The notes under the pieces are model-generated. The model had not been told where the DNA came from. It did not search any database and saw only the letters and a list, made by a program, of their open reading frames with translations. The translations under genes were made by a program, and so were the position numbers. DNA of 64,000 nt from positions 1-64,000 of the forward strand of contig NZ_RCHI01000005.1 in NCBI RefSeq assembly GCF_003664585.1. The letters run 5' to 3'. Shown here in pieces: positions 49,331 through 61,373 of the stretch. Source of the stretch: Paenirhodobacter hankyongi. Its GTDB lineage: Bacteria; Pseudomonadota; Alphaproteobacteria; Rhodobacterales; Rhodobacteraceae. How positions within the stretch are numbered: the stretch's first letter is position 1; every line of letters begins with the position of its first letter.

Positions 49331-50481
49331 GGCTGTTCCTGGTCGCGGGCGAGGCTTCGGGCGACAAGCTCGGCGCGGCGCTGATGGCCGGGATGAAGGC
49401 GCTTGCGCCGGGCGTCGAATTCTCCGGCGTCGGTGGCCCGCTGATGGAGGCCGAGGGCCTCGTCAGCCTGTTCCCGATGGAGGAGCTGTCGGTGATGGGC
49501 ATCGCGGAGGTGCTGCCGAAATACCGCCAGCTCAAGCGCCGCATCGCCGAGACCGCACAGGCCGTGCTCGACACCGGGCCCGCCGCGCTCGTCACCATCG
49601 ACAGCCCCGATTTCTCGTTGCGGGTCGCGCGAATCGTCAAGGCGGCGCGCCCGGATCTGCGCACCATCCATTACGTCGCGCCCTCGGTCTGGGCCTGGCG
49701 CCCCGGCCGCGCGGTGAAGATGGCCAAGGTGATCGACCACGTCCTGGCGCTTCTGCCCTTCGAGCCGCCCTATATGGAAGCCGCGGGCATGAGCTGCGAT
49801 TTCGTCGGCCATCCGGTGGTCGCCGAGCCGCGGGCAACTGCCGCCGAGGCCGCGCTCTTCCGCGAGCGCCACGGCATCGGTGACGACCAGCCCCTGGTGC
49901 TGTGCCTGCCCGGTTCGCGCCGGGGCGAGGTCGAGCGGCTCGGGCCGCGCTTCGACGAGGCGCTGATGCGGCTGCGCGACCGCGAGCCCGGGTTGCGGGT
50001 GGTGCTGCCCACGGTGCGCGGCGTCGCTCCCCTGGTGCGCGAGATGTCGGCGCGCTGGCCGGTCGCGCCCATCGTGGTCGAGGAGGCGGCGGACAAGCGC
50101 GCGGCCTTCGCCGCGGCCGATCTGGCGCTGGCCGCCTCGGGCACGGTCAGCCTTGAGCTTGCGGCAAGCCGCACGCCGATGGTGATCGCCTATGACGCCA
50201 GTTTCCTCACCTGGCACATCATCTGGCGGATGCTGCGCGTCGATACGGTGACGCTGGTCAATCTGGTGTCCGAGACCCGGGCGATCCCGGAATTTCTCGG
50301 CCCCGAATGCCGCCCGGACCGGATCTGCCACGCCCTCGTGCAGCTTCTGGAAAGCCCGGAGGCGCGGGCCGGTCAGCATGCGGCGATGGAAGAGACGATG
50401 CGCCGGCTTGGCGAGGGCGGCGAGGCGCCGGGGCTGCGCGCGGCGCGCTCGGTGCTGGCGGCGATCGAGCGGCGGCGTTGA
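49327..50481 (+). CDS. lpxB: Lipid-A-disaccharide synthase LpxB
   Basis: A 384-aa peripheral glycosyltransferase (GT19) joining two lipid X derivatives. The N-terminus is FLVAGEASGDKLGAALM. VGGPLMEAEGL, FVGHPV and LCLPGSRRGEVERL are conserved. It overlaps lpxI by 4 bases and ends on TGATG, sharing one base with the next start. Confidence 0.96.
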   Translation: MRLFLVAGEASGDKLGAALMAGMKALAPGVEFSGVGGPLMEAEGLVSLFPMEELSVMGIAEVLPKYRQLKRRIAETAQAVLDTGPAALVTIDSPDFSLRVARIVKAARPDLRTIHYVAPSVWAWRPGRAVKMAKVIDHVLALLPFEPPYMEAAGMSCDFVGHPVVAEPRATAAEAALFRERHGIGDDQPLVLCLPGSRRGEVERLGPRFDEALMRLRDREPGLRVVLPTVRGVAPLVREMSARWPVAPIVVEEAADKRAAFAAADLALAASGTVSLELAASRTPMVIAYDASFLTWHIIWRMLRVDTVTLVNLVSETRAIPEFLGPECRPDRICHALVQLLESPEARAGQHAAMEETMRRLGEGGEAPGLRAARSVLAAIERRR

Positions 50482-50765
50482 TGCGGGGCGTCCTGGCGGT
50501 CGTGCTGCTCGTGCTCGCCACGCCGGCCGCACGGGCCGAAGAGGGCGCGACGACGATCGGGGAACCGGCGGGCGAGGCGATCTGGGAGGCGGACTGCGCC
50601 GGGTGTCACCGCGATGTGGACAGGGCGCTTGCCCGGGTGAGCTGGGCGCTGACCGGCCAGCCGCCGCCTGAACGCGCGGTCTGGCTGCGCGATTTCATCC
50701 TGAACCACCACACGCCGGCGCGCGACAAGGTCGAGGTGCTGGCCGCTTGGCTGGCGCAGCGCTGA
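50481..50765 (+). CDS. Small exported one-heme cytochrome c-like protein
   Basis: A 94-aa protein. A signal peptide (1-19, ending AARA) is followed by one heme c site CAGCH (39-43). There is no Met after the heme site to act as the sixth ligand, so a His (such as NHH near 75) or an open site is possible. The C-terminal helix RDKVEVLAAWL resembles the end of short c-type cytochromes. Its start shares a base with the lpxB stop, so it is expressed with lipid A genes. Function unknown. Confidence 0.75.
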   Translation: MRGVLAVVLLVLATPAARAEEGATTIGEPAGEAIWEADCAGCHRDVDRALARVSWALTGQPPPERAVWLRDFILNHHTPARDKVEVLAAWLAQR

Positions 50766-50773
50766 GCCGAGCC

Positions 50774-51658
50774 TCAGACCTTCTCGAGCGGGATCACGTC
50801 GACCGCCTGCCGGGTCTCGTGGCCGCCCGCGGTGCGCATCACGCCGCGCACCGGTGCCACGTCGGAATAGTCGCGGCCGACGGCGATGGTGACGTAATCC
50901 TCACCGGCGAACTGGTCATTCGTCGGGTCGAACTCGATCCAGCCGGCCTCGAAGCCGACCCAGGCCCGGACCCAGGCGTGCATCGCGTCCGCACCCTCGA
51001 GCCGCGGCTTGCCGGGAGGCGGGAAGGTGCGCAGGAAGCCCGAGACATAGCCCGCCGGAATGCCGATGCCGCGCAATGCGGCGATCATGATATGGGTGAA
51101 GTCCTGACACACGCCGCGGCGCTGCGCGAAGGCCTCGCGCGCCGAGGTGTCGACGGTCGTCGCCTCGGCGTCGAAGGTCATCGCCCGGTTCAGTGCGCGC
51201 CCGATCGCCACCACCGCCTGTTGCGCCGTCATCCCCGCCGCAAGCTGCTTGCGGGCGAAGGCCGTGGTCTCGGTCATCGGCGCGACGCGGGGGCTGGCGC
51301 CCAAGAAATGGTGCGGCACCTCGGGGGCCAGGCTCTGCTGGGCCGCGATCTCGTCGGGCAACCGGTCAAGGAGCGCGGAGAGATCACTTGCAGGCGGCGC
51401 GGCGCGGCGCTCGACCTTGGCGGCCAGCTGGAACGAGACCGCATCGATCGGGGCATGCCAGGTGACCGAGGTGGTCGAATTGCCGAAGAAGTCGATCGCC
51501 TCGCGCCGCTCGTCGGGCATCGGCTCGACAGTCAGCAGCCGCGACAGCACGCGCTGTCGGCCCGGGATATCAGAGGGCAGCAGCCGCACGAGATTGCGGA
51601 TGTGATCCGAGGGAGCGGCATAGTCGTAGTCGATCGCGAGCCTGATTTCGTACAGCAT
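50774..51658 (-). CDS. Transglutaminase-like cysteine protease family protein
   Basis: A 294-aa protein with the bacterial transglutaminase N-terminal domain (YEIRLAIDYDYAAPSDHIRN) and a transglutaminase core. The triad candidates are Cys184 in RGVCQDFTHI, His227 in ADAMHAWV and Asp244 in EFDPTNDQ. It has no signal peptide, so it is likely cytosolic. It is the last gene of a leftward three-gene operon, 9 bases after the ATP-grasp gene. It probably cuts or re-ligates peptide bonds made by the operon's amidoligases. Confidence 0.88.
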   Translation of the reverse strand: MLYEIRLAIDYDYAAPSDHIRNLVRLLPSDIPGRQRVLSRLLTVEPMPDERREAIDFFGNSTTSVTWHAPIDAVSFQLAAKVERRAAPPASDLSALLDRLPDEIAAQQSLAPEVPHHFLGASPRVAPMTETTAFARKQLAAGMTAQQAVVAIGRALNRAMTFDAEATTVDTSAREAFAQRRGVCQDFTHIMIAALRGIGIPAGYVSGFLRTFPPPGKPRLEGADAMHAWVRAWVGFEAGWIEFDPTNDQFAGEDYVTIAVGRDYSDVAPVRGVMRTAGGHETRQAVDVIPLEKV

Positions 51659-51667
51659 GTCAGCCCT

Positions 51668-54085
51668 TTACCGCAGATACGCCGCGCCGATGAGATCCGA
51701 GATCCCGGCCAGTTCGCCGCGCAGGGTGCACAGGCGGTCGGTGTCGATTTCGGCCGGTGTGGCGATCAGCAGCGCGCTTTCGACCGGCACGATGGCGCGC
51801 AGCAGCGCCGTCAGCCGGCCGTTCTCGCGCGCGTTCGGCAGCGCCTCGGCCAGATAGCGCAGCCGCTGCACCTGGAACAGGATCGCGCGCGGGTTGTCGG
51901 CATCGAGGGCGAGCAGATCGACGACGGTATCGCGCGAGGTCTCGACCCGGTAGCGGCGCTGGTGGGTGATGACGCTGTCGGCGACCTCGACCGCCATGTC
52001 GAGCGAGCCCTCGGGCGCCTCGGCATCGGCAAAGGTGGCCAGGAGCGCGGCAAGCGAATCCGCCCGTTCGAGCGCCCGGCCGAAGCTGAGGAAGCGCCAG
52101 CCCGAGAAGCGATACATGTTCTCGTGCACGAGACCGGAAAAGCCGGTGATCTTGCGCAAAAGCACCGACATCGCGCGCGCGGCATCGTCGCCGGGCTGCG
52201 CCGTGGTGGTCATCCGTCGCGCCGTCTTCAGCATGTCGTTCAGCGCCGCCCAGCCATCGGTCGAGAACCGGTCGCGCACCTTGCCCGCACAGCTGCGCGC
52301 CGCCTCGAGCCGATCGATCAGCGCCGCGGGCACCGGTTCCTCAAGGTCATAGCCATAGCCGGTGAGGAACTCGTCCAGCCGCAGCAGGCGCGCGTCATTC
52401 GGGTTGTCGGTGGCGGCCAGGCGCAGATGATAGGCGCGGATCAGGCGGATCGCGTCTTCGCTGCGCTCGACATAGCGGCCAAGCCAATAGAGGTTGTCGG
52501 CGGCGCGAGAAGGAAGGATTGCGGTAGTGGCGCGGTGGAAATCAGGCGTCGGGCGCGGCGCGAGGGTTTCTTGCGGCACCGGCCGGTCGGAGACCACCCA
52601 GACGTCGGCGACCGAACCGCCACGCTGCATCGCCAGCGCCGTCGCATCGCCGGTCTTGCCGATCCGGGCATAGCCGCCCTGCATGAAGCGCCAGCCGCGG
52701 GGCGTGCGCGCGGCAAAGATGCGGATCGTCATCGGCCGCGGCTCGACCCGGCCGCCGTCCTCGGCATCGACCCAGACGGGTGTCGTCGACAGAGTCACCG
52801 CCTCCTGGCCAACCAGCCCCTGGCCCTCGCGTTCGAGCCAGTCGGTGATCGAGCGGGTGCCGCCGTCGCGGAAGGCGCCACCAAGCGCCGACTCGGCGCC
52901 GATGTCGAAGGGCAGGTCACAGGCATAGGCCGGGCCGATCATCATCCGCGCGGCATTGTCGCGGACATAGGCGCGCTCGGTGTCGCCGCCGCACCACCAG
53001 GTGGCGATGTTGGGCAGCTTCAGCGGCGCGCCCGCCAGCACCTCGGCGATCCGCGGCAGGAAGGCCATCATCGCCCGCATCTCGAGCACGCCCGAGCCGA
53101 GCGCGTTGACGAGGGCAAGGTTGCCAAGCCGCACCGCCTCCATCAGCCCCGGCGTGCCGATCCGGCTCGACGGATCGAGTTCCAGAGGATCGGCAAAGGC
53201 GCCATCGATGCGCCGCCACAGCACGCCGAGCGGCTGCGGCCCCTCGATTGTGCGCACCATCGCCTGACCGTTCTCGACCAGCAGATCCTCGCCTTCGAGC
53301 AGCATCAGGCCGAGGTAGCGCGCGATGTAGGTGTGTTCGTAATAGCTGTCGTTATGCGGGCCGGGGGTCAGGATGCCTGCGGCGCGCTCGCGCCCGCCCG
53401 CGCCCTGCGCGAGCCGTTGCAGCGCCTCGCGATAGGCGCCGAAGAAGCCCGCAAGGCGGTGGATATGGGCCCGCGGGAAGCGTTCGGGGAAGATCCGCCC
53501 GGTCGCCATCCGGTTTTCCAGCGCGAAGCCCGCGCCCGAAGGCGCCTGTGTGCGGTCGCCGAGCACGAGCCACGAGCCGTCGGGCGAGCGGCCGACCTCG
53601 AAGGCGAGGAAATGCAGGTAATGGCCGCCGCGCGGCGGCACGCCGACCATCGGCCGCAGCCATTGCCGCGAGCCCGCGATCAGCTCGGCCGGCAGATGGC
53701 CGTCGCGCACGAGCCGTCCCTGGCCGTAGAGATCGGCCATGACCTCCTCGAGCAGGTCGGCACGTTGCGCCAGCCCGTCGCAGATGCCTTGCCATTCGTC
53801 CTCGTGCAGGATCACCGGGATATGGCTGAGCGGCCATTCCCGTTCCTGCAACGGGTCGTTCGAATATTGCCGGAAGAACACGCCGGCATCGCGCAGATAG
53901 AGATTGCCGCGCTCGAAGCGCGCGGCAATCTCGTCACGGTTGAGCCGCGAGAAGCGGTCGACGAAGCGGCGCCAGACCGGCCGCATCCGGCCCTCGGCGT
54001 CGAACAGCTCGTCCGCGACGCCCGGGGTGAGCCGGTAGTCGGAGAAGAGGTCCGGTGCGGGGGGCGTCGTGGCGGGCTCGGTCAT
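51668..54085 (-). CDS. Circularly permuted ATP-grasp/alpha-E fusion protein
   Basis: An 805-aa fusion. Residues 1 to about 500 are the circularly permuted ATP-grasp peptide ligase (DUF404/DUF407 type) with HIPVILHEDEWQGICDGLAQR, GPHNDSYYEHTYIARYLGL and the GTPGLMEAVRLGNLALVNALG block. From about 515 the alpha-E (DUF403) helical domain starts at LPSRAADNLYWLGRYVERSED. In many bacteria the two parts are separate genes. The enzyme is expected to form peptide-like bonds at the cost of ATP. Middle gene of the operon. Confidence 0.9.
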   Translation of the reverse strand: MTEPATTPPAPDLFSDYRLTPGVADELFDAEGRMRPVWRRFVDRFSRLNRDEIAARFERGNLYLRDAGVFFRQYSNDPLQEREWPLSHIPVILHEDEWQGICDGLAQRADLLEEVMADLYGQGRLVRDGHLPAELIAGSRQWLRPMVGVPPRGGHYLHFLAFEVGRSPDGSWLVLGDRTQAPSGAGFALENRMATGRIFPERFPRAHIHRLAGFFGAYREALQRLAQGAGGRERAAGILTPGPHNDSYYEHTYIARYLGLMLLEGEDLLVENGQAMVRTIEGPQPLGVLWRRIDGAFADPLELDPSSRIGTPGLMEAVRLGNLALVNALGSGVLEMRAMMAFLPRIAEVLAGAPLKLPNIATWWCGGDTERAYVRDNAARMMIGPAYACDLPFDIGAESALGGAFRDGGTRSITDWLEREGQGLVGQEAVTLSTTPVWVDAEDGGRVEPRPMTIRIFAARTPRGWRFMQGGYARIGKTGDATALAMQRGGSVADVWVVSDRPVPQETLAPRPTPDFHRATTAILPSRAADNLYWLGRYVERSEDAIRLIRAYHLRLAATDNPNDARLLRLDEFLTGYGYDLEEPVPAALIDRLEAARSCAGKVRDRFSTDGWAALNDMLKTARRMTTTAQPGDDAARAMSVLLRKITGFSGLVHENMYRFSGWRFLSFGRALERADSLAALLATFADAEAPEGSLDMAVEVADSVITHQRRYRVETSRDTVVDLLALDADNPRAILFQVQRLRYLAEALPNARENGRLTALLRAIVPVESALLIATPAEIDTDRLCTLRGELAGISDLIGAAYLR

Positions 54086-54106
54086 GATTCATTTCTGGCT
54101 CGTCGG

Positions 54107-57100
54107 TCAGAACAGTCCGATGGGCCGGCGCAGGTCCAGCGTCAAGGGGAATTCCGGATGCGGGGTCTCGCTCGCGGGCTCATAGACGCCGCCGGTGTGG
54201 CCGAAGGGCTCGAACCGGGCAAGACGCCGCGCCTCGGCCTCGTAGGCATTGACCGGGAAGGTGTCATAGTTGCGCCCGCCGGGATGGGCGACGTGATAGG
54301 TGCAGCCGGCCAGCGCGTGACCCGTCCAGGTGTCGTAGATGTCGAAGACGAGCGGCGTGTTCACCGGCAGCGTCGGGTGCAGCGCCTCGGGCGGTTGCCA
54401 GGCCTTGAAGCGCACGCCGCCGACCGAGACCCCGGAGGTCTGGGTCCTGGCCATCGGCACGGGGCGTCGGTTGCACATCACCTTGTAACGGTCCTGATGG
54501 AGGGTGGTCAGCTTCACCTGAAGTCTTTCGACAGAACTGTCGGTGTAGCGGACGGTTCCCCCGATCGCGCCGGTTTCGCCCAGCACATGCCAGGGTTCGA
54601 GCGCCTGACGCACCTCGAGATGCACGCCCTCGGCCTGGATCTGGCCGCAGAACGGGAAGCGGAACTCGGCCTGCGCCTCGAACCAGACCGGGTCCATCTC
54701 GAAACCGTGGTTCTTCAGGTCGGTGAGCAGGCTGAGCAGGTCTTCCCACAGGTAATGGGGCAGCATGAAGCGGTCATGCAGCACCGTGCCCCAGCGGACC
54801 GGCCGGCCCTCGACCGGGGCGATCCAGCACCGCGCGATCAGCGCCCGCAGCAGCAGTTGCTGGGCCAGCGACATGCGCGGATGGGGCGGCATCTCGAAGC
54901 CGCGGAACTCGACCAGGCCCAGACGGCCGGTCGGCCCGTCGGGCGAATAGAGCTTGTCGATGCAGATCTCGGCGCGGTGCGTGTTGCCGGTGACATCGGT
55001 CAGCATGTTGCGCAACAGCCGGTCGACCAGCCAGGGCGGCGGCGTCATCCCCTTCCAGGGCGGCGTGATCTGCGACAGCGCGATCTCGAGCTCGTAGAGC
55101 GTGTCGTGGCGCGCCTCGTCGATGCGCGGGGCCTGCGAGGTCGGGCCGATGAACAGGCCCGAGAACAGGTAGCTCAGGCAGGGATGGCGCTGCCAGATCA
55201 GGATTAGCGATTTCAGCAGATCGGGGCGGCGCAGGAACGGGCTGTCGTTCGGGGTGGCGCCACCGACGACCACGTGGTTGCCGCCGCCGGTGCCGGTGTG
55301 GCGGCCGTCGATCATGAACTTGTCGGCACCAAGGCGCGACAGCCGGGCTTCTTCATAGATCGCCTCGGTGGTGGCGACGCAATCCTCCCAGCTGTGGGCG
55401 GGGTGGATGTTGACCTCGATCACGCCCGGATCGGGGGCGACGCGGATCACGTTCAGCCGCGGGTCATGCGGCGGCGCATAGCCTTCGATGTGGATGGGCA
55501 GGTTCAGCTCGGCCGCCGTCGCCTCGGCGGTGGCGATCAGTTCGAGATAATCCTCGAGCGTGTCGCAGGGCGGCATGAAGAGGCACAGCCGGCCATCGCG
55601 CGGCTCGATCGCGATCGCGGTGCGGACCCAGCCCATCGAGGGGTCGACCCCCTCGCCGAGATGGGTGTCCTGCGGCACCCATTTCTGCCGCTCGGCCTCT
55701 TTCGCGCCGGCGCGGAAGCCCTGCGCATGGCCCGGCGTCACCCCGGGCATCAGCGCGGCACGCTCGGCGTCTTCCTGCGCGAGGCGGTCGATCTCCTCCT
55801 GGATCTTGCGGCGGCGCTCCTCGACCACGGCCTGATAATCGGGCAGCGGCGCGCGCGGCACGGTCGGGTCGGCCGGATAGCTGTAGGGATATTGCGCGGG
55901 CGGGATATAGGGCAGCGAGCCGAGCGGCAGGCGGAAGCCCACCGGGCTGTCGCCGGGGATCAGGAAGATATGGCCGCGGCGCGGCTTCCACAGCTCGGAG
56001 CGCCAGTGCGACGGTGTATCGGCCGATTGCCACCAGCGCTGGATCGGCAGGACATAGCCCGAGGGCTCGGTCAGGCCGCGGTTGAAGACGCGGGCATAGC
56101 GGGCGCGGTCCTCGGGGTTCTTCAGCCGGGAATTTTCGGGCGAGACATTCGGCGGCAGGTTCGCTTCCTTGAGGATCCACTCGGCCGGATCCTCGTAGGC
56201 GGGCTGGGCATAGTTGCCGTCAAGGCCGAGCTTGGTCGCGAAGGTCGACATGAATTTGCCGGCCTCGGCCGCGCTCATCTGCTGCGGCGCATCCTCGCGC
56301 GCGATCAGCTCGGGGTTCTTCCACACCGGCAGCCCGTCGTTGCGCCAGTAGAGCGAGAAGGTCCAGCGCGGCAGGCTTTCGCCCGGATACCACTTGCCCT
56401 GACCGTAATGCAGGAAGCCACCGGGCGCGAAGCGCTGCTTCAGCCGGCGGATCAGGGTATCGGCCAGACCGCGCTTCTGCGGGCCGACGGCGGCGGTGTT
56501 CCACTCGTCCGATTCGAAATCGTCGACCGAGACGAAGGTCGGCTCGCCGCCCATGGTCAGCCGCACGTCGCCCTCGCGCAGGGTCTCGTCGACCTTGCGG
56601 CCAAGCGCGTTGAGCCGCTCCCAGGCCTCGTCCGAGAACGGCTTGGTGATCCGCGGGTGTTCGGCCACGCGCTTGATCTTCATGTCGAAATCGAAGCTGA
56701 CCTCGGGCGTGCCGATGGCCGAGAAGCCGCCGACGATCGGCGCGGCGTTGCGGAAATGCGGGGTCGCTGCCAGCGGGATGTGACTTTCGCCGGTGAGCAG
56801 CCCCGAGGTCGGGTCGAGCCCGATCCAGCCGGCGCCAGGCAGGAACACCTCGCACCAGGCGTGCAGGTCGGTGAAGTCGTGGTCGGTGCCCGCGGGCCCG
56901 TCGAGCGAGACCACGTCGGGCTTGAGCTGAATGAGATAGCCCGAGACGAAACGTGCGGCAAAGCCGAGATGGCGCAGCGCCTGCACCAGGAGCCACGAGC
57001 TGTCCCGGCACGAGCCCGAGCGCAGCGCAAGCGTCTCGTCAGGGGTCTGCACGCCCGGCTCCATCCGGATCGTGTAGTTGATCCCGTTCGCGATCCGGGC

Positions 57101-57547
57101 ATTCAGCGCGACCAGGAAGTCGACGGTGCGGGTCTTGCTGTAATCGATCGTGCCGAGGAGCTGGGCCAGCAGCGGGCCTTCGGGTTCGGGCGTGCGATAG
57201 ATCGACAGGTCGTCACGCAGCTCTTCGGGATACTCGAAGGGCCAGTATTCGGCGCTTTCCTCGACGAAGAAGTCGAAGGGGTTGTAGACCGTCATGTCGG
57301 CGACGAGATCGACCTCGATCTTCAGCTCGGTCACCGGCTCGGGGAAGACGAAGCGCGCCAGCCAGTTGCCGTAGGGGTCCTGCTGGTGGTTCACGAAATG
57401 GCCGCCGGGCGAGACCTTCAGCGAATGCGAGATCACCCGGGTGCGCGAATGCGGGGCGGGGCGCAGGCGGATGATCTGCGGGCCCAGAGTGACGGGCCGG
57501 TCATACTTGTAATGCGTCAGGTGATAGATGGATGCGTAAATCGCCAT
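54107..57547 (-). CDS. Transglutaminase-DUF2126 putative amidoligase
   Basis: A very large 1146-aa protein. Residues 1-300 are a transglutaminase-like module (Cys180 in GSCRDSSW, His229 in DLHAWC, Asp245 in LDPTSG). The rest, from about 340, is the DUF2126 region, a putative COOH-NH2 ligase, with [15 protein letters not shown] near its start. The ATG at 57547 begins the conserved N-terminus [13 protein letters not shown]. It is the first gene of the operon with the ATP-grasp/alpha-E and transglutaminase genes. Product unknown. Confidence 0.9.
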
Positions 57548-58886: not shown

Positions 58887-59447
58887 TCAGCCGTTCCAGG
58901 TGCGGACCTGGCCGCAATCCATATGCACGAAGTTCGAGCGCATGTATTTGCCGACGCCGCCGGCGTGGCAGGCCGTCGCGGCCGAATAGATCTGCGGCAC
59001 CGAGCGCGACTTCAGCCGCAGGTCGGCGGCCATGCCCTTCATGTGCAGCGAATTCTGTGCAACCCCGCGCGAGCGGGCGCGCAGCATGGCATTCGTCGCG
59101 GGCGAGCGATAACCGGACAGCATCATGTAGGGTTCGCTGGTGTCCATCAGCCGGTGCGACGCCGCGGCGATGTCGACGGTGCGCGGGTCGATGGTGATCT
59201 TCTGATCGGTCCGCCAGTCGCGCATGAAGTGGTTGATTTCCTTGAGGGCTTCGGGGATGTACTCGCCCTCGATCCAGTACACGGTGTCGATGCTCTCGCC
59301 GGTGCGGCCGGAATACATCTTGATGCGTCGGATATCACCGGCGCCGCGCAGAAAGCCGAAGGCGTTCGATGCGGTCGGCGCGGCCGTGACAGCGGTCGCG
59401 GCGAAGGCTGCAAGAAGCCCGCGGCGGGAAAGTGTCGTCATGCTCAT
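58887..59447 (-). CDS. DUF882 (YcbK-like, M15 peptidase-like) exported protein
   Basis: A 186-aa exported protein. The N-terminus SRRGLLAAFAATAV looks like a Tat signal (Arg8-Arg9). The zinc motif of M15-type peptidases is present: SLHMKGMAADLR and, later, FVHMDCG, so it may cut peptidoglycan cross-links. Start ATG 59447 or 59441. It is divergent from an L,D-transpeptidase gene, which suggests joint work on peptidoglycan. Confidence 0.85.
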   Translation of the reverse strand: MSMTTLSRRGLLAAFAATAVTAAPTASNAFGFLRGAGDIRRIKMYSGRTGESIDTVYWIEGEYIPEALKEINHFMRDWRTDQKITIDPRTVDIAAASHRLMDTSEPYMMLSGYRSPATNAMLRARSRGVAQNSLHMKGMAADLRLKSRSVPQIYSAATACHAGGVGKYMRSNFVHMDCGQVRTWNG

Positions 59448-59750
59448 ATCCAGTTCGCCTGTTCTGTCGTTCGAGGGTGCCGTCATTCGACGTGCGGTTG
59501 GGACCTGCCTCCCCCTTACCATGGCTCAGTTATGGCACAGGCGCTGTCTTGTTCCAATCGCGGAATCGGGATCGACAGAACACAAGGGGGAAAATCGGCA
59601 GGTTTCTGCCCAATTTTCTTGCCTGTTGCGCCGCCGTCGCACCGCTGTGCCTTCGGCGCCGCAACCCGTGCCGCTTTGTTGCGCAGATCTGGACAGTTCC
59701 GGGCTTTTGCAGGACGCTGGGAACATTGATGTTTCAGGGGGAACGGGCAG
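59448..59750. other. 303-base divergent intergenic region
   Basis: Between the DUF882 and L,D-transpeptidase genes. I see no gene with a ribosome site. It holds an extended dyad with AT flanks (59590-59618). No clear promoter boxes were found for either gene. Confidence 0.6.
59590..59618. promoter_or_regulatory. Extended dyad/hairpin in the divergent region
   Basis: GAAAAT (59590-59595) and GGCAG (59597-59601) pair with CTGCC (59606-59610) and ATTTTC (59613-59618) around a GTTT loop, with a small C/CA mismatch. The shape fits either an operator or a terminator of a short transcript. Confidence 0.4.
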
Positions 59751-61373
59751 ATGTGGGGTGCGATGCGCGGTTTCGGCGGCGCGGCGCTGCTGGCGGCGTT
59801 GATGGCGGGCACGGCGATCGGCGGAACGGTGATGCCGACCGATGCCAGCGCGCAGATGATCGACGGGTTTTCGCAGGCGGTGGCCGAGGGCGTGGCCGGC
59901 AACGAGGGACTTGCCGCCTTCTATGCCGCGCGCAGCTATGCGCCGATCTGGACGACCGGCGCCGATGCCGACCGCCGCGCCGCCTTCTTTGCCGCCCTCG
60001 ACGGGGCCGGGGCGCATGGCCTGCCGGTCGACCACTATGATGCCGCGGGGCTGCGCGCGCGCTTTGCCTCGATCCGCTCCGAGCGCGAGCGCGGCCTGCT
60101 CGAGGCCGACATGTCCCGCACCTGGGCGGATTATGCGCATGACGTCTCGAACGGCGTGCTCGAGCCGAAGAAGATCGACCCCGGTCTGGTACGCGAGATC
60201 CCCCGCCGCGACACCGCCGAGCTGATCGCGGGCTTTGCCGCGGCCGAGGTGCCGGCGCGCTTCCTGCGCGATCTCGCCCCGGGCGCGCCGCAATACGCCC
60301 AGCTGATGCGCGCGCGGCTCGACCTTGCGGCGCAGATGGCGGCGGGCGGCTGGGGCGCGACGGTGCCGGCGAAGGTGCTTCGCCCGGGCGAGAGCGGGGC
60401 GGCGGTGATCGCCCTGCGCGACCGGCTTCAGGCGATGGGGTATCTCGGCCGCTCGGCCAGCCCGCGCTATGATGCGTCGCTGCAGAAGGCAGTGCAGCAG
60501 TATCAGCTCGACCTTGGTCTCAAGTCCGACGGCGTCGCCGGCGAGGCGACGCTTGCCGAGATCAACCGCAGCCCCGAGGAGCGGATGCGGTCGATCCTCG
60601 TCGCGATGGAGCGGCTGCGCTGGATGAACGGGATCGACCTCGGCGCGCGCCACATCTGGGTGAACATCACCGATTTCTCGGCCCGGATCGTCGATCACGG
60701 CAAGACCACCTTCGAGACGGTGACCGTCGTCGGCCAGAACCAGACCGACCGCCGCACGCCCGAATTCTCGGACGAGATGGAGATGATGGTGATCAACCCG
60801 AGCTGGTCGGTGCCGCGCTCGATCACCGTCAAGGAATACCTGCCGATGATGCAGCGCAACCCGAATGCGGCGGCGCATATCAACCTGGTCGACAGCCGGG
60901 GCCGCACCGTGCCGCGCTCGGCGGTGAATTTCGCCGCCTACACCGACAAGACCTTCCCCTTCGCGATGAAGCAGCCGCCGTCGGATGGCAATGCGCTCGG
61001 GCTGGTGAAGTTCCTGTTCCCGAACAAGTACAACATCTACCTGCACGACACGCCGTCGAAATCGCTGTTCAGCAAGGACGTGCGCGCCTTCAGCCATGGC
61101 TGCGTGCGGGTCGGCAAGCCCTTCGAGCTGGCCTATGCGCTGCTCGCGCCGCAGGCGGCCGACCCCGAGGCCTATTTCCAGCGGATCCTCGCCTCCGGGC
61201 AGGAGACGACGGTGCGGCTGGAGACGCCGGTGCCGGTGCATCTGGTCTATTTCACCGCCTGGCCGACGGCGAGCGGACGGATGGAATATCGCGCCGATGT
61301 CTATGGGCGCGATGCCGCGCTCTTTGCCGCGCTTGAAAAGGCAGGGGTGGAATTGCCCGTGCTCTCGAACTAG
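59751..61373 (+). CDS. L,D-transpeptidase (YkuD, LdtD/YcbB-like)
   Basis: A 540-aa exported enzyme that forms 3-3 cross-links or anchors proteins to peptidoglycan. A signal peptide (1 to about 34, ending ASAQ) is followed by a helical domain, a peptidoglycan-binding segment (LRPGESGAAVIALRDRLQAMGYLG), the YkuD domain (from about 300) and the catalytic motif SHGCVRV (Cys451). The order matches YcbB. ATG 59751 or 59763 may be the start. Confidence 0.92.
   Translation: MWGAMRGFGGAALLAALMAGTAIGGTVMPTDASAQMIDGFSQAVAEGVAGNEGLAAFYAARSYAPIWTTGADADRRAAFFAALDGAGAHGLPVDHYDAAGLRARFASIRSERERGLLEADMSRTWADYAHDVSNGVLEPKKIDPGLVREIPRRDTAELIAGFAAAEVPARFLRDLAPGAPQYAQLMRARLDLAAQMAAGGWGATVPAKVLRPGESGAAVIALRDRLQAMGYLGRSASPRYDASLQKAVQQYQLDLGLKSDGVAGEATLAEINRSPEERMRSILVAMERLRWMNGIDLGARHIWVNITDFSARIVDHGKTTFETVTVVGQNQTDRRTPEFSDEMEMMVINPSWSVPRSITVKEYLPMMQRNPNAAAHINLVDSRGRTVPRSAVNFAAYTDKTFPFAMKQPPSDGNALGLVKFLFPNKYNIYLHDTPSKSLFSKDVRAFSHGCVRVGKPFELAYALLAPQAADPEAYFQRILASGQETTVRLETPVPVHLVYFTAWPTASGRMEYRADVYGRDAALFAALEKAGVELPVLSN

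Follow-up and report, generated by a model that had tools for sequence, protein, structure and literature searches.

A fused ATP-grasp lacking canonical ATP-site residues in a DUF2126 operon of Paenirhodobacter hankyongi, with a possible partner locus in the same genome

The operon considered here raises the question of which of its proteins can form an amide bond. The window, that is, the whole stretch of DNA analyzed, covers positions 1 to 64,000 of contig NZ_RCHI01000005.1 of Paenirhodobacter hankyongi (GCF_003664585.1), and it carries three leftward genes for a transglutaminase-DUF2126 protein (P0001), a fused ATP-grasp-alpha-E protein (P0002) and a second transglutaminase-like protein (P0003), as listed in Table 1. 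A preliminary description of the window had counted two amide-bond enzymes in this operon, the ATP-grasp and DUF2126, and had proposed that the domains be checked for degeneracy. In that check, the ATP-grasp was degenerate, as the ATP-binding residues of its ExN pair, lysine and GGYG loop are lost, and DUF2126 and both transglutaminase-like domains were not; the claim is thus not supported for the ATP-grasp, and DUF2126 looks intact and is a putative ligase. With about even confidence, we read the window operon as one half of a two-locus system for the synthesis and editing of amide bonds, probably linked to nitrogen, in which the fused ATP-grasp is non-catalytic.

Peptide-synthesis systems composed of ATP-grasp, Alpha-E, transglutaminase and DUF2126 families were predicted in 2009 by Iyer, Abhiman, Burroughs and Aravind (PMC3268129). 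All four families are present within the window operon, which shares with these systems, as later papers citing that work present them, the idea of linked amide-bond enzymes and differs from them in that its ATP-grasp is without the canonical catalytic residues. Within this known, predicted and uncharacterized family the operon is an ordinary case, and the preliminary description was right to link it to such a system. Among the matches listed in the literature search, neither a pseudo-ATP-grasp nor an inactive ATP-grasp was named together with Alpha-E or Anbu.

The ATP site of the fused ATP-grasp

For ATP, synthetases of the ATP-grasp fold rely on a lysine, on acidic ligands of Mg and on a glycine-rich loop (PMC2845819). 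Their ATP-binding positions are presumed to correspond to the positions aligned with them in the window protein and its family. The positions E156, N158, R160, K344, K364, Y372, D424, R426 and D464 are numbered as in the stand-alone ATP-grasp of the same genome, and the roles assigned to them are taken in part from that paper.

Where this stand-alone ATP-grasp has EDNCR, VVK...SGGYG and a final KD, P0002 has GDRTQ, MIG...IGAE and AD. The Mg-binding Glu-x-Asn, the phosphate-binding Lys and the glycine-rich loop of a canonical ATP-grasp ligase are therefore absent from P0002, and the catalytic residues, which are not intact in the operon's own ATP-grasp, are intact in the stand-alone paralogue. 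In an alignment with 88 fused proteins, which includes the window protein and leaves out two short rows (L046 and L039), E156 was kept in 1, N158 in 0, R160 in 4, K364 in 4, and Y372 and D424 in 0, and R426 and D464 were kept in all 88. In that alignment, these eight residues were kept by each of the 5 stand-alone rows. A second set was taken from further genomes of the class and from other classes, and 3 of its fused and 2 of its stand-alone rows also stand in the first alignment; EDN and K..(S/A)GGYG were kept in 26 of its 26 stand-alone rows, and EDN or GGYG in none of its 23 fused rows, two of which (L159 and L160) are gapped at the loop. The same split is seen in other phyla: the site is degenerate in fused proteins from Acidobacteriota (L220) and Actinomycetota (L221) and intact in stand-alone ones from Actinomycetota (L222) and Bacteroidota (L224).

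The loss of the residues is not accompanied by a loss of the fold. The AlphaFold2 model of P0002 has a pLDDT of 87.8, and its best match in the PDB is 3n6x (E = 5.6e-29), followed by glutathione synthetases. The ATP-grasp fold is thus common to P0002, 3n6x and the glutathione and glutathionylspermidine synthetases (PDB 2hgs and 2io7); however, the ExN pair and the glycine-rich loop are kept in the 3n6x sequence and missing from the window protein. It could be supposed, as in the preliminary description, that both ligases of the window operon are active and that its three genes are sufficient. Although this would agree with the whole-domain Pfam match of P0002 to CP_ATPgrasp_2, with its preserved fold and with a gene that is clearly maintained, it is very improbable when the ExN pair, the G-loop and, in the window protein, both lysines are lost, and when an intact-type ATP-grasp is found elsewhere in nearly all such genomes.

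The positions at which residues were replaced are themselves conserved among the 88 fused proteins, with R in 83 at N158, Q in 65 at R160 and W in all 88 at K344, and W364 and E428 of P0002 are invariant across 48 rows. The first ER pair of the alpha-E domain is also largely kept in 108 fused rows (E in 98, R in 105). In a tree of four phyla with a midpoint root, in which three genes were entered twice, 32 stand-alone and 41 fused ATP-grasp rows are split by one branch of length 0.75, the printed support being 1.0 on the stand-alone side and 0.948 on the fused side. The split is an old one: a single long branch between the two types indicates that the duplication, the fusion and the loss are all old. 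Because the replaced positions are conserved and the two types are separated in this tree, the fused ATP-grasp looks like an old, maintained pseudo-ligase or a repurposed one, and not like a decaying gene.

Repurposing in the strict sense would mean that a motif of the fused protein's own (DRTQAPSG, W364 and E428 of P0002) binds a nucleotide or another ligand in its own manner and supports a different reaction. We consider this quite unlikely, since no recognizable Mg ligand pair or phosphate-binding loop is present, and the conservation of the replaced and invariant positions, which is what speaks for it, is accounted for as well by a binding or scaffold role.

DUF2126 and the transglutaminase-like domains

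An ORF check placed the three frames at 50774-57547 on the minus strand, where the preliminary description had them, and Pfam agreed with its calls of ATP-grasp, alpha-E, DUF2126 and two transglutaminase-like domains. The Pfam assignments for P0001-P0003 are unambiguous and far beyond chance. The gaps between the genes are 21 and 9 nt, which makes a single operon likely, as had been proposed. The order of DUF2126 gene, fused ATP-grasp-alpha-E gene and transglutaminase gene forms the complete system gene set in 79 of 100 DUF2126 loci, and four further loci (L030, L035, L124 and L125) have the same three-gene order plus extra genes. In 8 of the 100 loci the DUF2126 gene is alone in the stretch examined, and some others are partly cut at contig ends. 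Searches with the three proteins gave no match to any NCBIfam model.

Table 1. Positions and domains of the operon proteins and of other genes mentioned in the text
Feature	Sequence	Position	Strand	Length	Domains or basis
Transglutaminase-DUF2126 protein P0001	window	54107..57547	-	1146 aa	Pfam Bact_transglu_N + Transglut_core + DUF2126 (1326 bits); transglutaminase-like residues 6-246 (Cys180-His229-Asp245), DUF2126 residues 282-1140
CP-ATP-grasp-alpha-E protein P0002	window	51668..54085	-	805 aa	Pfam CP_ATPgrasp_2 (422 bits) + Alpha-E (188 bits); circularly permuted ATP-grasp type 2 residues 90-475, Alpha-E domain 524-804
Second transglutaminase-like protein P0003	window	50774..51658	-	294 aa	Pfam Bact_transglu_N + Transglut_core
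Stand-alone ATP-grasp	L004 (contig C1)	4527..5939			ATP-site residues intact
Small secreted-looking protein	window	50481..50765			CAGCH (haem c-type) motif
Longer frame over the CAGCH protein	window	50307..50765			no Pfam match
DUF882/M15 peptidase gene and L,D-transpeptidase gene	window	58887..61373	opposite strands		
Putative zinc metallopeptidase	L126	6817..7875			PF15887
Putative zinc metallopeptidase	L224	4414..5495			record annotation

The two Cys-His-Asp domains named in the preliminary description have intact triads. The triad of P0001 was present in every one of the 119 rows aligned, the window included; in P0003, Cys and His were kept in 105 of 105 rows and Asp in 104, with one gap. 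In P0001, 293 positions are invariant over 21 rows, again including the window, where columns with at least 17 letters were counted. DUF2126 and both triads thus look intact at the sequence level. An ATP-grasp and a transglutaminase-type domain also stand in one operon in the rlo operon of P. aeruginosa (PMC12239564), which encodes a retropepsin-like protease, an inactive membrane transglutaminase and a RimK-related ATP-grasp; in contrast to rlo, the transglutaminases of the window are intact and its ATP-grasp is not.

The model of P0001 has a pLDDT of 76.6, and its transglutaminase part was matched by Foldseek to 3isr. Pfam labels DUF2126 a putative amidoligase. Read by eye, its motifs, including EFR, appear to follow the motif order of glutamine synthetase (GlnA). 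A synthetase-like ligase is a likely but putative assignment for DUF2126, given these motifs and the weak fold match described below. The name 'DUF2126' occurs in no paper of the literature library searched; a paper on M. leprae states that the function of its homologue has been described in no experimental study, and under the Rv gene names one genome-association paper was found.

The second locus and the proposed two-part system

No Anbu gene adjoins the window operon, and the sole match in the genome lies on contig C1 (L004), where a complete Anbu operon consists of an ATP-grasp, an alpha-E, a transglutaminase and a proteasome-family protein. The system seems to extend past the window to this intact ATP-grasp-alpha-E pair and Anbu. 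The ATP-grasp, Alpha-E and transglutaminase families of the Anbu operon (PMC5666114, PMC6376114) are paralogous to those of the window operon, which differs in having no Anbu gene, an added DUF2126 and an ATP-grasp that is degenerate and fused to Alpha-E. The ATP-grasp of a Yersinia Anbu operon releases phosphate from ATP (PMC6376114).

In a sample of 142 genomes of the class, DUF2126 was found in 21, and a stand-alone ATP-grasp was present in 19 of these 21 against 26 of the 121 others (Fisher p = 1.8e-9, with kinship not corrected). Stand-alone and fused genes were separated here by ORF length (at most 615 aa versus at least 757 aa), and for 12 of the 19 genomes counted the ATP-site residues of the stand-alone copy were checked. 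The two DUF2126 genomes without a stand-alone copy are 84% and 74% complete, and one of them, G127, has a 177-bit ATP-grasp fragment at a contig end. By our reading, 22 genomes carry the fused gene, and 19 of them also have a stand-alone copy; the three exceptions are 74-84% complete, and in G069 the fused gene gave a weak match (81 bits).

In a sample of 299 genomes of the phylum, a strong ATP-grasp match was found in 84 of 84 DUF2126 genomes and in 71 of the 215 others, where a best E-value of at most 1e-150 was the mark of an intact-type ATP-grasp; since two fused proteins (G262 and G051) also pass this mark, the score alone is no proof of the intact type. Anbu was found in 14 of the 21 DUF2126 genomes of the class sample, and in 51 of 84 in the phylum sample against 51 of 215 others. 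At the genome level, DUF2126 is thus dependent on, and tied more to, the intact-type ATP-grasp than to Anbu. The family is common, a relative being encoded in at least 593 stretches of one species-level genome collection, and no product for it was found in the literature searched.

The two halves also share loci in other lineages. Outside the class, 20 neighbourhoods were picked by the author, and in 12 of them (L202, L204, L206-L208, L210-L213, L216, L218 and L219) DUF2126, the fused gene and the stand-alone ATP-grasp stand in a single locus; in the other eight, at least one of these three genes is missing from the stretch examined. Further joint loci are L126 (Caballeronia), L223 (B. cenocepacia), L030, L035 and L124. 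In M. tuberculosis, the parts are presumably split between two loci in a similar way.

From these observations we infer a widespread two-part system that would make and edit an amide (peptide or isopeptide) bond. DUF2126 would be the working ligase of the window operon, using ATP and fused to a Cys-His-Asp hydrolase or transferase, and P0003 would be a second Cys-His-Asp hydrolase. The ATP-grasp-alpha-E protein, having the fold without the ATP-grasp chemistry, would most likely be a scaffold, substrate-binding or regulatory subunit, and a working ATP-grasp and alpha-E partner would be supplied by the second locus, here the Anbu operon on contig C1. The stand-alone ATP-grasp would make another bond or a donor molecule, the alpha-E domains and the pseudo-ATP-grasp would hold partners or the substrate, and the two transglutaminase-like domains would cut or transfer the product, for which a small peptide, a polymer and a modification of a target protein are all conceivable. 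In P. hankyongi, the system would probably serve under nitrogen limitation.

The joint pathway could be doubted on the ground that the DUF2126 operon belongs to one system and the stand-alone ATP-grasp/Anbu operon to another, with only a regulon and a lifestyle in common. In this genome the two occupy different contigs, in most of the alphaproteobacterial loci examined they do not stand together, Anbu accompanies DUF2126 only in the fractions given above, and in some genomes without a DUF2126 match the fused pseudo-ATP-grasp gene and a transglutaminase gene form two-gene loci (L157-L160). We nevertheless regard separate systems as unlikely, because the co-occurrence with a strong ATP-grasp match is complete in the phylum sample and the halves are neighbouring or interleaved in the 12 joint loci outside the class.

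The finding is of value because the operon's ATP-grasp appears to be dead and a second locus is relied on; it leads to a sharper prediction as to which ATP-grasp is active, which is not and which second locus matters under nitrogen limitation. It also suggests a reason why assays of the window's three proteins alone could fail.

Two observations on related loci may be added. In L205 and L214, the neighbours of DUF2126 are Anbu and a stand-alone ATP-grasp, and the stretch examined contains no fused gene. In distant bacteria (L126 and L224), a putative zinc metallopeptidase adjoins the stand-alone ATP-grasp and alpha-E.

Possible nitrogen-linked expression and operon surroundings

Sites similar to the sigma54 consensus (a score of at least 10 of 12) were counted upstream of the genes, and the expected counts were obtained from first-order Markov shuffles. 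Of 30 ATP-grasp genes, made up of 29 stand-alone genes and one cut fused piece, 8 have such a site upstream, against 0.6 expected; of 107 fused genes, which are operon-internal, none has one, against 2.05 expected. The signal upstream of the stand-alone ATP-grasp is clear on this count. The published nitrogen control of relatives agrees with it: the B. cenocepacia cluster I35_5080-83 requires NtrC and sigma54 (PMC5491218), and in P. putida PP_2685 (proteasome beta-type) and PP_2688 (CP-ATP-grasp) are raised on nitrate (PMC8050072). From the domain order, I35_5080-83 would be the first four genes of L223.

The nitrogen-linked expression of these relatives, together with the intact Cys-His-Asp triads, would also suit a catabolic system, in which the transglutaminase-like peptidases and Anbu free peptide nitrogen in starvation and the ligase folds activate or sense. 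A conserved ligase-type domain and an ATP-consuming stand-alone ATP-grasp are, however, odd for pure hydrolysis, and Anbu was inactive on proteasome substrates (PMC6376114); a catabolic role therefore has a small probability in our view. A protein-tagging pathway that is induced by nitrogen starvation, linked to the proteasome and unrelated to Pup, to whose tagging it would bear a functional analogy only, seems decidedly improbable for the DUF2126 systems. There, the ATP-grasp would make a small peptide or adduct, DUF2126 would attach it to proteins, the pseudo-ATP-grasp-alpha-E protein would recruit targets as a scaffold, the transglutaminase-type domains would take the tag off or pass it on, and in genomes with Anbu the conjugates would be degraded by it.

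Several results weigh against the two-locus system with a non-catalytic fused ATP-grasp. The lysine survives in 8 of the 23 fused rows of the second set. The Foldseek match of the P0001 model to glutamine synthetases (8fbp, prob 0.97) has a weak E-value of 0.021 and a TM-score by query of 0.13, and hhalign found nothing between DUF2126 and E. coli GlnA (prob 1.4%); because hhalign likewise found nothing between the stand-alone ATP-grasp profile and E. coli glutathionylspermidine synthetase, both links come from the fold search. No biochemistry for DUF2126 was found in the literature searched. A stand-alone ATP-grasp is in the stretch examined in only 4 of 100 DUF2126 loci of the window's class, so that the halves are usually apart there, and co-occurrence is no proof of a joint reaction. 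In published pull-downs for which Anbu served as bait, none of the Anbu-operon proteins was recovered as a specific partner (PMC6376114). Sigma54-like sites were found upstream of 7 of 115 DUF2126 genes against 2.25 expected, a modest excess; it was weakened by the recount with stricter labels and Markov shuffles, as an earlier count had used base-content shuffles and a set of 31 ATP-grasp genes that were not all stand-alone. No such site precedes the window operon or the genome's Anbu operon, where the best scores are 6 and 7 of 12.

Flanking frames of the DUF2126 loci were clustered, and among the 30 largest clusters no extra conserved neighbour gene was spread over diverse loci; the largest cluster comprises 23 loci, only 2 of them in the diverse set. 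In the window, an AbrB-family protein is encoded in front of the operon and a small protein without a Pfam match behind it on the opposite strand; judged by Pfam, these nearest neighbours are without a link to the amidoligase system. An anti-phage defence system was considered and set aside, as PADLOC gave no defence-family match for the three operon proteins, and so was a phage origin, as two scans of viral contigs gave no relative.

The small CAGCH protein is convergent with the operon, and its stop is 8 nt from the last operon stop; its start, as given in Table 1, is our own reading. Beyond the AbrB-family gene, the DUF882/M15 peptidase and L,D-transpeptidase genes lie 1.3-3.8 kb upstream of the operon. 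The Tsukamurella 'plasmids' L221 and L222 in PLSDB carry aspS, alaS, ruvX and rpsT, and look like mislabelled chromosome pieces.

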